Source of the DNA: Actinomycetota bacterium
GTDB lineage: Bacteria; Actinomycetota; Acidimicrobiia; Acidimicrobiales; VFJN01
DNA length: 38,797 bases
Reading direction: 5' to 3'
NCBI GenBank assembly: GCA_009886035.1
Contig: VFJN01000193.1
Coordinates: 1 to 38,797 of the forward strand
How positions within the stretch are numbered: position 1 is the stretch's first letter; each line of letters begins with the position of its first letter. This document shows, in pieces, positions 3,588 to 27,912 of this stretch. The notes under the pieces are model-generated. The model was not told the DNA's origin. It ran no database searches and saw nothing but the letters and a program-made list of their open reading frames with translations. The translations under genes and the position numbers were made by a program.

Positions 3588-5201
3588 CTAGTTTTCCGTG
3601 TGGATGAGACCCCACACGAGCGCATCGATGAGGGCCTGCCAGGAGGCTTCGATGATGTTGGCGGACACCCCAATGGTGGTCCACGCCCGATCCCCATCGG
3701 TGGAATCGATGAGCACCCGCACCACGGCATTGGTGTTGGCCACCCCATCGAGAATCCGCACCCGGTAGTCGGTGAGATGAATGTGGGCGAGTTGGGGATA
3801 GGCCCCCACCAGCACGGCCCGAAGGGCCTGATCCAAGGCGTTGACCGGCCCGTTGCCGGCGCCCACCTCGATGAGACGCTCCCCCTCGATCCACAGTTCG
3901 ACGGTGGCTTCGGTCTCGATGGTGGCCGGGGTGTCGGCCTGTGCGGGCGTGCGGTGATACGTGGTGGCCCGGTAGCCCTCCACGGTGAAGTAATTCTGGG
4001 TCCAACCCCCCGCCCGGCGCATCAACAACTCCAGGCTGGCGTCGGCGGCCTCGAACACAAACCCTTCCGCCTCCAGCCCTTTGAGGTGGTCCGACAAGGT
4101 CCCGGCGGCGGCCTCGCTCAGCTCAACCCCTAGTTCCTTGGCCTTCAGCACCATGCCGGCGCGCCCGCCGAGATCGCTCACCAGCACTCGGGTGCGGTTG
4201 CCGACGAGATCGGGGACGATGTGCTCGTAGGTCGCGCCACCGGCCTTACCCACCGCCGACGTATGCAAACCCCCCTTGTGAGCAAACGCCGACATCCCCA
4301 CGTAGGGATCAGCCGAATGAGGTGGCAGGTTCACGAGTTCGGCCACGTGGCGACTCACGGTGGTGAGGCGCGCCAGTCGGCCCTCCGGAAGGCAGCGCAC
4401 CCCGAGTTTGAGTTCAAGATTGGGAATGCAGGTCATCAGATTGGCGTTCCCCGTGCGTTCGCCGTAGCCGTTGACCGTGCCCTGCAGGTGGGTGGCTCCC
4501 CCGAGCACACCGGCTACCGAGTTCGCCACCGCGCAGCCGGAGTCGTTCTGGGTATGGATACCGAGTTGCTGGCCGGACCCGAAGTAGGCATGCACCTCAC
4601 CGGCGATGCGCTCAACCTCGTGGGGCAAAGATCCCCCGTTGGTGTCGCACATCACGAGACAATCGGCACCGCTGGTGGCCGCCGCCTCCAATACCGCCAG
4701 CGCATACTCCGGGTTGGCTTTGTAGCCGTCGAAGAAGTGCTCGGCATCGAAGAATACGTCGAGCCCGGCGGCCTTGAGGAACTCCACGCTCTCCCCCACC
4801 ATGGCCACGCCTTCGTTCAAGGTGGTGCCCAAGGCCTCGAGGACGTGAAAATCCCAGCTCTTGCCCACGATGCACACCGCCGAGGTGCCCGCCGCCACCA
4901 GCGCCTTCAGGGTGGGATCGACATCTACCTTGCCCGCCGGTCGGCGCGTGGAACCGAAAGCCACCAGCGTCGCCGTCTCCAAATGCAGTTCGGTGAGCGC
5001 CCTCCGGAAGAACTCCTCATCTTTGGGGTTGGCCTGCGGATAGCCACCCTCGATCCACGCCACCCCCAGCCAGTCGAGTTGCTCAGCCACCTTCAGTTTG
5101 TCTTCGACGGTGAGAGAAATGCCCTCGAACTGGGCGCCGTCGCGCAGCGTCGTGTCGAAGATCTCAACCGAAGGCGGAAGCGGCCGATCGGCTAGTGACA
5201 C
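3588..5201 (-). CDS. cimA: (R)-citramalate synthase (LeuA-like)
   Basis: VEIFDTTLRDGAQFEGISLTVEDKLKVAEQLDWLGVAWIEGGYPQANPKDEEFF...CDTNGGSLPHEV...GIHTQNDSGCAVANSV...GERTGNANL; CimA-type DTTLRDGAQ and C-terminal LeuA dimer domain. Confidence 0.9.
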   Translation of the reverse strand: MSLADRPLPPSVEIFDTTLRDGAQFEGISLTVEDKLKVAEQLDWLGVAWIEGGYPQANPKDEEFFRRALTELHLETATLVAFGSTRRPAGKVDVDPTLKALVAAGTSAVCIVGKSWDFHVLEALGTTLNEGVAMVGESVEFLKAAGLDVFFDAEHFFDGYKANPEYALAVLEAAATSGADCLVMCDTNGGSLPHEVERIAGEVHAYFGSGQQLGIHTQNDSGCAVANSVAGVLGGATHLQGTVNGYGERTGNANLMTCIPNLELKLGVRCLPEGRLARLTTVSRHVAELVNLPPHSADPYVGMSAFAHKGGLHTSAVGKAGGATYEHIVPDLVGNRTRVLVSDLGGRAGMVLKAKELGVELSEAAAGTLSDHLKGLEAEGFVFEAADASLELLMRRAGGWTQNYFTVEGYRATTYHRTPAQADTPATIETEATVELWIEGERLIEVGAGNGPVNALDQALRAVLVGAYPQLAHIHLTDYRVRILDGVANTNAVVRVLIDSTDGDRAWTTIGVSANIIEASWQALIDALVWGLIHTEN

Positions 5202-6109
5202 AGCTCGACCCAGTGTCGGAACTGCGCCACTTGACCCCGCACGACCTTGCCGTATTCCGTCCCAATGGCCATGGTGACTGATCCGGGGAAGGGAATCGTG
5301 CGGTCGTCGACCGATCTCACCGACGAAACCTCCGCCGCTGTACCCACCACGAACATCTCATCAGCAACATAAAGATCGCTCCGCGTCAGCTCACCAAACA
5401 CCATGTCGATGTCCATCGAGCGCGCCATTGTCATGACCGTGTGCTGGGTGATGCCCTCCAAGGCACCCGACGACAGCGGTGGGGTGATCACCCTCCCCCC
5501 GCGTGACACAAAGATGTTTTCCCCCGTGCACTCCGAAACGAGGCCCTGCTGATTCAGCATGACCGCTTCGTCGTACCCCGCATTGAGCGCCTCGACCTTG
5601 GCCAGGCTCGAGTTTACGTAGTTGCCAGTGGTTTTGGCCGCCGGCGGCATGGTGTTGTGGTCGTGACGCATCCAACTACTGATCTTCAACCGCACGCCCT
5701 TGGTGAGGGCGTCGTCGCCGAGGTAGGCCCCCCACGGCCAGCAGGCGATGGCCACATCCACCGAGCATGGAAGCGTGTTGAGACCCATCTCGCCGAAGCC
5801 GTAATAGGCGATCGGTCGGATGTAACAGGCCGGCAGGCCCGAAGCCAACACGGTTTCCTTGACCGCCTGCACGAGTTCCGCCACCGAATAAGGAATCGAC
5901 ATCCCCAAAATAGCGGCGGAGCGAAACAACCGTTCGATGTGATCAGTAAGCCGGAACACACCGGGACCGTCGGCGGTCTCATAGGCACGAATGCCCTCGA
6001 ATACACCCGTCCCGTAGTGGAGGGTGTGGGTGAGCACATGGATGTTGGCCTCCGCCCAAGGGACCTGCTCTCCGTTCATCCAGATCGTGGGGGTGGGGGT
6101 AATCGGCAT
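5192..6109 (-). CDS. ilvE: Branched-chain amino acid aminotransferase
   Basis: MPITPTPTIWMNGEQVPWAEANIHVLTHTLHYGTGVFEGIRAYET...NYVNSSLAKVEALNAGYDEAVMLNQQGLVSECTGENIFV; class IV aminotransferase. Overlaps the cimA start by 10 bp. Confidence 0.93.
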   Translation of the reverse strand: MPITPTPTIWMNGEQVPWAEANIHVLTHTLHYGTGVFEGIRAYETADGPGVFRLTDHIERLFRSAAILGMSIPYSVAELVQAVKETVLASGLPACYIRPIAYYGFGEMGLNTLPCSVDVAIACWPWGAYLGDDALTKGVRLKISSWMRHDHNTMPPAAKTTGNYVNSSLAKVEALNAGYDEAVMLNQQGLVSECTGENIFVSRGGRVITPPLSSGALEGITQHTVMTMARSMDIDMVFGELTRSDLYVADEMFVVGTAAEVSSVRSVDDRTIPFPGSVTMAIGTEYGKVVRGQVAQFRHWVELCH

Positions 6110-6123
6110 GGTGAGGTTCCCTA

Positions 6124-7110
6124 TCAGTGTGAGAGACGAGCGACTACGAGGTCGCCCACCTCGCGGGTGGAGCCGGTGATGGTGGCGGTATCTGCGCAGG
6201 CGGAGCGCACCCGATCGGCGGCGGCACCCTCCCCTAGATGGTCGAGCATCAAGGCCGCGGAGAGGATCGCCGCCACCGGATTGGCCTTGTCCTGGCCTGC
6301 GATATCGGGAGCCGAGCCATGTACGGGCTCAAACATCGACGGCCCCGTGCGCGCCGGGTTGAGGTTGCCGGAACTAGCGAAACCGATGCCCCCCGATACC
6401 GCACCCCCGAGGTCGGTGAGAATGTCGCCGAACAAATTGTCGGTCACGACTACGTCGTACTGTTCCGGACTCTGCACGAAATAGATGCAGGCGGCGTCGA
6501 CATGGTGGTAGTTCGTACTGACGCCGGGATACTCGACGGCCACCTCCGAAAACGTGCGGTCCCAAAGATCGCCCGCGAAGGTGAGCACGTTGGTCTTGTG
6601 CACCAACGTGAGGTGGCGTCGTGGCCGACTGTCGGCCAGCGCAAAGGCATAGCGAACACAACGCTCTACGCCGTGGCGGGTGTTCACTGAGCCCTGGGTG
6701 GCCACTTCGTGCACCGTGCCCTTCCGCAACACCCCGCCCTCGCCCACGTAGGGGCCTTCCGTGTTTTCCCGGATCACGATCATGTCCACGTTGTTGGGCG
6801 GGTAGAGGAACGGGCGCTGGTTGATGTAAAGGTCCAACTCGAAACGCATTTTCAGGAGCAGGCCTCGTTCGATCACTCCCGGGGGAACGCCAGGGGTGCC
6901 CACCGCACCGAGCAGGAGGGCATCGAGGCCGCGCCACTCCTCAAGGATCTCGTCGGGGAGGATGGTGCCATCGCGCAGGTAGCGGGTACCGCCGAGGTCG
7001 TACTCCACCGTGTCGAGTTGCACCCCGGCGGCGCGCACAACCTTGAGCGCTTCCGCGATGACTTCGGGGCCAATCCCGTCGCCGCCGATGATCCCCACCT
7101 GGTGACCCAC
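6124..7110 (-). CDS. leuB: 3-isopropylmalate dehydrogenase
   Basis: [27 protein letters not shown]...[11 protein letters not shown]...[29 protein letters not shown]...[24 protein letters not shown] start preceded by AAGGAGATGAA. Confidence 0.92.
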
Positions 7111-7133: not shown

Positions 7134-7160
7134 AAAAACCGCCCACCAAGGCGGACGGTT
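7134..7160 (-). terminator. Leader terminator upstream of leuB (putative attenuator)
   Basis: Minus strand AACCGTCCGCCTTGGTGGGCGGTTTTTCC: GC-rich stem with G-U wobbles followed by a U tract, 24 bp before the leuB GTG. Confidence 0.75.
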
Positions 7161-7164
7161 GGAG

Positions 7165-7189
7165 AGCGCACGTCTATTCGACGCGCGCT
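7165..7189 (-). promoter_or_regulatory. First leader hairpin, overlapping the leader ORF stop (leuB attenuator)
   Basis: Minus strand AGCGCGCGTC GAATA GACGTGCGCT: 10-bp stem with one G-U; leader ORF TAG lies at its 5' edge. Confidence 0.7.
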
Positions 7190-7226
7190 AGACGATGCTA
7201 GATACAGCCTGAAAATGCTTACTCAC
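7188..7226 (-). CDS. Putative leader peptide of leuB operon, MSKHFQAVSSIV*
   Basis: GTG AGT AAG CAT TTT CAG GCT GTA TCT AGC ATC GTC TAG, ending at the first leader hairpin; an in-frame upstream GTG would give MLQARLCGVSKHFQAVSSIV*. Confidence 0.5.
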   Translation of the reverse strand: MSKHFQAVSSIV

Positions 7227-7304
7227 GCCGCAGAGTCTCGCCTGCAACACGCGTCTTCGTCAACTAGGTTTCGGCTTCAGGTCCCGATTCTAGGAGCACA
7301 AGAT

Positions 7305-8864: not shown

Positions 8865-9332
8865 ATGCCGCCCACGCACTATCTCTCCCAACCGGCCTAC
8901 GACCGGCTCAAGGCCGAGCACGACGACCTCACCACGGTCGGGCGAGTGAGCATTGCGCGCAAGATTGAAACTGCCCGCGAGTTGGGCGACTTGAAAGAAA
9001 ACGGCGATTACCACGCCGCCAAAGACTTCCAGGGCCAGATGGAGGCCCGGATCCGCCAACTCGCCTCCATGATTGAGCATTGCGAGATTGTGGAAGGCAC
9101 CGACGGCTCCGCCGTCGAGCCCGGATCCGTGGTGGAACTCCGCTACGAAGGCGACGACACCACGGAGCAATACTTCTTCGGCTCGGTCGAAGAACGGGGC
9201 GTGGACCACGAAATCATCAGTCCACAGTCGCCGCTGGGCAAAGCCCTCATCGGCAGAACGCCGGGCGACGAGGTGAGCTTCGAAAGCCCTACCGGCGCCA
9301 CCCTGACCGTCCAGGTCGTCACGATTCAGTAG
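8865..9332 (+). CDS. greA: Transcription elongation factor GreA-like
   Basis: YLSQPAYDRLKAEHDDL...IARKIETARELGDLKENGDYHAAKDFQGQMEARIRQL...SPLGKALIGRTPGDEVSFESPTG. Confidence 0.88.
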   Translation: MPPTHYLSQPAYDRLKAEHDDLTTVGRVSIARKIETARELGDLKENGDYHAAKDFQGQMEARIRQLASMIEHCEIVEGTDGSAVEPGSVVELRYEGDDTTEQYFFGSVEERGVDHEIISPQSPLGKALIGRTPGDEVSFESPTGATLTVQVVTIQ

Positions 9333-13545: not shown

Positions 13546-15397
<1,852 letters not shown>

Positions 15398-27791: not shown

Positions 27792-27822
27792 GTCCTGGGT
27801 GCCTTTCGGGCGTAACGCAAAC

Positions 27823-27842
27823 GACCTCCCGGGTGGGAGGTC
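27823..27842 (-). terminator. Leader terminator-like hairpin upstream of ilvB (putative attenuator)
   Basis: Minus strand GACCTCCC ACCC GGGAGGTC followed by GTTTGCGTT; 8-bp perfect stem, weak U tract. Confidence 0.65.
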
Positions 27843-27846
27843 GAGG

Positions 27847-27878
27847 AGCGCACGGGCGAGAGAAAAACGCCGTGCGCT
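27847..27878 (-). promoter_or_regulatory. First leader hairpin of ilvB attenuator
   Basis: Minus strand AGCGCACGG CGTTTTTCTCTCGC CCGTGCGCT; 9-bp stem overlapping the leader stop. Confidence 0.7.
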
Positions 27879-27912
27879 AAGTAACTACCTGAAGGATGGT
27901 CGGGGTGGTCAC
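27877..27912 (-). CDS. ilvB leader peptide [11 protein letters not shown]
   Basis: GTG ACC ACC CCG ACC ATC CTT CAG GTA GTT ACT TAG: Ile-Leu-x-Val-Val codons just before the hairpin; GGGAAGA upstream. Confidence 0.7.

Follow-up and report, generated by a model that had tools for sequence, protein, structure and literature searches.

A leader-like element in front of leuB

What is a short open reading frame (ORF) that ends in valine and isoleucine codons doing in front of leuB, a leucine-pathway gene? The window (the whole 38,797-nucleotide stretch of DNA analysed here) encodes on its minus strand 3-isopropylmalate dehydrogenase (leuB, 6124..7110; NCBIfam NF002898, 485 bits against a cut-off of 393), branched-chain aminotransferase (ilvE, 5192..6109; NCBIfam NF005146/TIGR01122, above cut-off) and citramalate synthase (cimA, 3588..5201; NCBIfam TIGR00977, 684 bits against a cut-off of 450). 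These assignments bear out the gene order leuB-ilvE-cimA given in a first-pass annotation of the same DNA. The nearest named relatives of the LeuB protein come from Ilumatobacteraceae/Acidimicrobiales MAGs. The annotation had also described a small ORF ending in ATC GTC TAG at a 10-bp hairpin, with a U-tract terminator just before leuB, and had read this arrangement as an attenuator-like leader; all of these parts are found where it placed them.

Read along the minus strand, the region opens with a -35-like TTGACG (7258..7263; TTGACG/T and the 18-nt spacer are kept across the genus) and a -10-like GAGACT (7234..7239), with 7 nt between the end of the latter and the leader start codon. The leader ORF (7188..7226) has 12 codons, running from GTG (7226-7224) to TAG (7190-7188), and encodes MSKHFQAVSSIV. 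Its control codons are GTA at position -5, ATC at -2 and GTC at -1, and its peptide (AVSSIV) is among the weaker ones in the set described below. Hairpin 1 (7165..7189), a 10-bp stem with a loop of 5, abuts and overlaps the stop codon, taking in its AG. Downstream lies an intrinsic terminator, AACCGUCCGCC-UUGG-UGGGCGGUU plus U5 (7134..7160), with a 10-bp stem and a loop of 4 (7160-7137) and the U5 tract at 7138-7134. The start codon of leuB is GTG (7110-7108) with AAGGAG upstream, and this Shine-Dalgarno sequence sits downstream of the terminator, outside the leader structure. The element thus has the makings of an attenuator: a short ORF with codons for the operon's amino acids and an intrinsic terminator before the first structural gene.

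The 99-nt leader stretch folds at -37.9 kcal/mol (z -3.38), which beats 200 of 200 shuffles, and its terminator is the best-scoring terminator match within the first 12 kb of the window. A further terminator-like hairpin with a T-rich tail, GGCGGCGTGGTAATCGCCGTT, occurs at 9000-9021 on the minus strand and is probably coding sequence.

Conservation of the ORF, hairpin 1 and the terminator

We found LeuB in the genome of the window and in 59 order-level relatives, and examined the upstream DNA for 56. The leader is present in 36 of these 56 order-level genomes, a 37th genome (G038, L051/L253) carries a more distant copy with the peptide end AVIIE, and copies from other orders of the class bring the total to 72 leuB leader sequences. 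Some lineages have leuB-ilvE-cimA without the leader. Four records titled Bifidobacterium breve (L133, L135, L138 and L163) encode a LeuB of the Acidimicrobiales type, and L133 and L138 have Acidimicrobiales-type leaders too; the titles look wrong for these MAGs.

The first-pass annotation had proposed aligning related upstream regions for covariation and codon conservation, and had held that a conserved terminator beside a small ORF that is not conserved would point to another mechanism or to a simple upstream terminator. We see the opposite. Conservation takes in the ORF end, its frame, the Val/Ile codons, hairpin 1 beside them and the terminator as one set (36 leaders in the order, 72 leuB leaders in the class), which supports the attenuator reading, and pairing statistics support both hairpins. 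Hairpin 1 is paired in 95.6% of cells, with both-sided changes in 8 of its 9 pairs. When the two hairpins are taken jointly, the values observed on five pairing measures, covariation included, were reached by none of 500 shuffles, and slid partners pair far less than the true hairpin arms. Hairpin 1 of other families in the class reads GCGAACG...CGUUCGC and the terminator shows no matching change.

The terminator is the most sequence-conserved part of the leader, with a near-fixed GACCGUCCACC-loop-GGUGGGCGGUUUUU throughout the order. This would fit a plain, constitutive terminator (or an insulator) ahead of leuB, with the small ORF being incidental. Such an arrangement would not account for an ORF whose frame, stop position and Val/Ile end are all kept with synonymous variation, nor for a hairpin that covaries right beside the stop. 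Moreover, the gene upstream of the leader, which encodes an AMP-binding enzyme and starts at about 7304, is divergent, so no upstream operon ends at the leuB leader terminator. We therefore consider a plain terminator highly improbable, and rejected a simple upstream terminator on the divergent neighbour and the conserved ORF.

Leader codons and the isoleucine route

If the ORF is read by a ribosome, its last codons should matter, and they are strongly biased. Codons -2 to -5 of the 72 leuB leaders (n=288) comprise 149 Ile, 95 Val, 3 Leu and 41 others. At these positions Ile and Val together make up 70% in frame, compared with 0.6-1.1% in either of the other frames. Of the 72 leaders, 68 have Ile at position -2, with ATT and ATC exchanging synonymously. 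Rare synonyms are favoured in the control codons, with GTA used for 34 of 50 Val and ATT for 46 of 68 Ile, compared with 7% and 18% respectively in a reference of nine window genes from one genome that is indicative only.

Valine and isoleucine codons in front of leuB had struck the first-pass annotation as less familiar than leader peptides at leuA or ilvB. The Val/Ile peptide itself is confirmed, and its oddity disappears once the rest of the operon is taken into account. LeuB has a second role, in the citramalate route to 2-oxobutyrate. Downstream of the leader, cimA lies in the same operon at 30 of the 30 with-leader leuB loci that have enough downstream DNA. Threonine deaminase was not found among the four PALP-fold proteins of the window's own genome (93% complete), which are CysM-like, TrpB, D-cysteine-desulfhydrase-like and ThrC (TrpB and ThrC having been identified by reading the sequences). 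Given that citramalate synthase is the operon's last product and that this genome yielded no threonine deaminase, a Val/Ile leader at leuB is what one would expect, and leuB-ilvE-cimA is best read as an isoleucine/valine operon. Control of leuB would then be tied to isoleucine via the citramalate route. Overall, the annotation's observation was right and understated. In two leuB-cimA operons without ilvE, the leaders (IIIIR in L020, TISIP in L022) have no Val among their last four codons, a lead that the Val codons may track ilvE.

One RNA design in front of several genes

R1, a covariance model derived from the leuB leaders, has three matches at E < 1 in the window's own genome: the leuB leader (1e-14), a leuA leader (15290..15376, minus strand; E 2.3e-6) and an ilvB leader (27809..27888, minus strand; E 3.1e-4). 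The latter two consist of a short peptide (15 and 14 protein letters, respectively), a hairpin and a terminator, and the earlier suggestion that all three leaders share one architecture is thus upheld by a model trained on leuB leaders. Across the class, 193 of 296 genomes have an R1 match. The first recognised gene downstream of the 71 matches that we read was leuB in 43 cases, cimA in 16, ilvB in 11 and leuA in 1. All but two of 22 further R1 loci precede ilvB, cimA, leuB, ilvE or ilvD; L230 and L254 have no recognisable gene downstream, and the match at L254 is weak (E 0.03). At L247 the peptide has a Leu run and the downstream gene, which matches CimA at only 29%, may be leuA.

Codon identity varies with the gene downstream. 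Before cimA, positions -2 to -5 contain 67 Ile, 1 Val and 0 Leu, and before ilvB 7 Ile, 17 Val and 15 Leu (chi-square p 7e-31 for codon identity against downstream gene, a value uncorrected for genome relatedness and indicative only). The window's leuA leader has a run of Leu codons. Where cimA stands apart from leuB, the leader precedes cimA and has an Ile run, as in G012, which has no leader at leuB. One further leader (L248 position 1501, G046) lies between leuB and ilvE-cimA, with a Leu/Val/Ile mix in its peptide (...ALVILLV).

The operon could also be controlled by an RNA element to which a protein or ligand binds, either in the manner of a riboswitch or as suggested for the actinobacterial LEU element; the ORF would then be secondary. 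The sequence conservation of the terminator does exceed what pairing needs, and an RNA-binding protein has been proposed for LEU elements (PMC1262725). Against this, the leader offers just two small hairpins with variable loops and no conserved unpaired pocket. Rfam 15 at its gathering threshold gave no T-box or other riboswitch match to the leader, with sub-threshold matches to unrelated families only; the one Rfam match in the window is a tRNA gene at 827-898 on the minus strand. Codon identity, moreover, switches among Ile, Val and Leu from gene to gene on an unchanged RNA design. A constant design whose codons follow the gene argues for the sensing of charged tRNA rather than of a bound protein or ligand, and makes the leader ORF the predicted sensing part. 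We judge an element of the protein- or ligand-bound kind improbable. Instead, the comparison suggests that one conserved RNA design can carry a branched-chain attenuator whose codons are exchanged (Ile/Val, Ile, Leu/Val or Leu) to match the downstream gene.

The leader ORF is probably translated leaderless

Many relatives share a promoter class of the form TTGACG-N17/18-GACACT. In all 24 leaders that match TTGACG/GACACT at 10 or more of 12 positions, an in-frame ATG or GTG lies 6-10 nt past the -10 element; by eye, the window's leuA and ilvB leaders have a similar spacing. With the -10 this close to the start codon, transcription should begin at or next to that codon, so translation of the leuB leader ORF is probably leaderless, starting at GTG 7226. 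The first-pass annotation had offered two starts. The in-frame extension to an upstream GTG is present as claimed (as is one to a TTG), but the start of this 20-codon version falls within the -35/-10 spacer and is probably not transcribed, and we rejected it in favour of the short ORF.

There are precedents for such initiation. RNA-seq in S. lividans showed that the leader peptides of ilvB, leuA, leuS and trp (ilvL, leuL, trpL) are transcribed leaderless (PMC8079986), and the C. glutamicum ilvBNC leader peptide is formed without a ribosome binding site, as cited in PMC10272879. The S. lividans leaders resemble the leuB leader in that the transcript opens with the ORF and hairpins come after it. 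Their list includes neither leuB nor cimA, and they were identified by RNA-seq, whereas we infer the leaderless start of the leuB leader from promoter spacing.

Proposed mechanism and the search for an antiterminator

Given the parts observed, their conservation, a codon bias that depends on both the frame and the downstream gene, and the covariation of the hairpins, we think it highly likely, on sequence grounds, that the element is a leader-peptide (ribosome-mediated) transcription attenuator of leuB-ilvE-cimA that senses charged tRNA-Val and tRNA-Ile. Transcription would start at GTG 7226 or no more than about 3 nt from it, and the ORF would be read as a leaderless mRNA. When Ile-tRNA and Val-tRNA are ample, the ribosome would pass the last five codons, terminate at the UAG and leave, whereupon hairpin 1 and then the terminator would form and RNA polymerase would halt before leuB. 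Should Ile or Val run low, the ribosome would be held on GTA, ATC or GTC, and its front would then cover the 5' arm of hairpin 1. The blocked hairpin 1 would in turn prevent the terminator, so that the terminator is evaded and the operon transcribed as a predicted starvation response. Bacteria of this class would thus, very probably, gauge their isoleucine/valine supply by the speed of a ribosome on a 12-codon mini-gene.

In a classical attenuator, an antiterminator would connect the held ribosome to the terminator. We looked for one between region 2 (the 3' arm of hairpin 1) and region 3 (the 5' arm of the terminator) in two registers, comparing energies with those of shuffled sequence, counting pairs and scanning every upstream 12-mer by position against the terminator arm. 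Once freed, the 3' arm of hairpin 1 can pair with the 5' arm of the terminator in two short registers, and the 2:3 register pairs in 82.5% of cells, compared with at most 63% when slid. The energy of this pairing is no better than with a shuffled region 2, its covariation shows no excess over shuffles, and the 12-mer scan gave nothing clearly above controls. The 2:3 complementarity is further broken in the other families of the class that have the GCGAACG...CGUUCGC hairpins.

These results point to either a short, kinetic antiterminator or another ribosome-dependent route. The latter is a variant of the attenuator reading and does not exclude it: translation of the same ORF would control termination by ribosome-RNA polymerase coupling, pausing at hairpin 1, NusG- or Rho-assisted termination or stalling by the nascent peptide, and not by a 2:3 switch. 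The energy and covariation tests leave room for such a route, as do the many leaders that end Ile-Pro-stop, which could slow termination. However, Pro is the last codon in 22 of the 72 leuB leaders and so is not required (50 of 72 lack it), and a hairpin abutting the stop codon followed by a U-tract terminator comprises the usual parts of a classical attenuator. We consider these other routes possible, if on the unlikely side. Somewhat more doubtful still, in our estimation, is the broadest version: a class-wide set of paralogous leaderless leader-peptide switches (at leuB-ilvE-cimA, cimA, ilvB and leuA) that share one RNA design, exchange only their control codons and evade the terminator without a conserved antiterminator stem, via a ribosome-dependent route other than 2:3/3:4 pairing. 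The leaders offer many natural variants with which to probe how leaderless leader peptides control termination in Actinomycetota.

Relation to known attenuators

In the E. coli attenuators of ilvGMEDA, ilvBN and leuABCD, stalling of the ribosome on branched-chain codons governs the terminator, as we propose for the leuB leader. Unlike the leuB leader, they have documented antiterminators, longer leaders and Shine-Dalgarno initiation, and to our knowledge none of them is found at leuB. The leuB leader belongs to this known class of leader-peptide attenuators; its position is what we did not find described, as our search of the open-access literature returned no description of a leader-peptide attenuator before leuB or cimA.

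Within the Actinobacteria, candidate ilvB leader peptides with terminators (Corynebacterium, Mycobacterium and Streptomyces) and the LEU element before leuA are known (PMC1262725), and reporter data exist for the ilvB-II motif, the C. glutamicum ilvBNC attenuator, alongside an account of E. coli ilvB attenuation (PMC10272879). The ilvB attenuators (PMC1262725; ilvB-II, PMC10272879) and the leuB leader alike have a short uORF with branched-chain codons, then an intrinsic terminator, in front of a branched-chain operon. The leuB leader differs in its gene (leuB-ilvE-cimA), in having Ile/Val without Leu and in belonging to a different class of bacteria; furthermore, its hairpin begins at the stop codon, whereas the ilvB-II uORF spans most of P1.

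The LEU element (PMC1262725) likewise has a leader ORF upstream of a leucine-pathway gene. There, a run of Leu codons near the stop pairs with the leuA Shine-Dalgarno sequence and there is no clear terminator, whereas the leuB leader has no Leu run (3 of 288 codons), has an intrinsic terminator and leaves its Shine-Dalgarno outside the structure. We therefore rejected the LEU element as the identity of the leuB leader.

Earlier mutational work on the ilvB and leuA leaders of Streptomyces was ambiguous. In S. coelicolor, the ilvB leader codons were not needed for regulation, as cited in PMC1262725, which counts against the attenuator reading.

Related leaders outside the class

R1 also matches in front of cimA in other Actinomycetota, at hairpin-terminator leaders with Ile codons (IIIS-stop, VIIP-stop, LLIIG...). 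These loci (L195, L179, L174, L189, L162, L161, L183, L200 and L173) come from Kribbella, Modestobacter, Geodermatophilaceae, Actinomadura, Acrocarpospora, Streptomyces, Glycomyces and Herbidospora, and in several cases the stop is displaced into hairpin 1. A leader of the same design (L222, G384), likewise from outside the class, lies near ilvD and has a peptide ending in RVLLIT.
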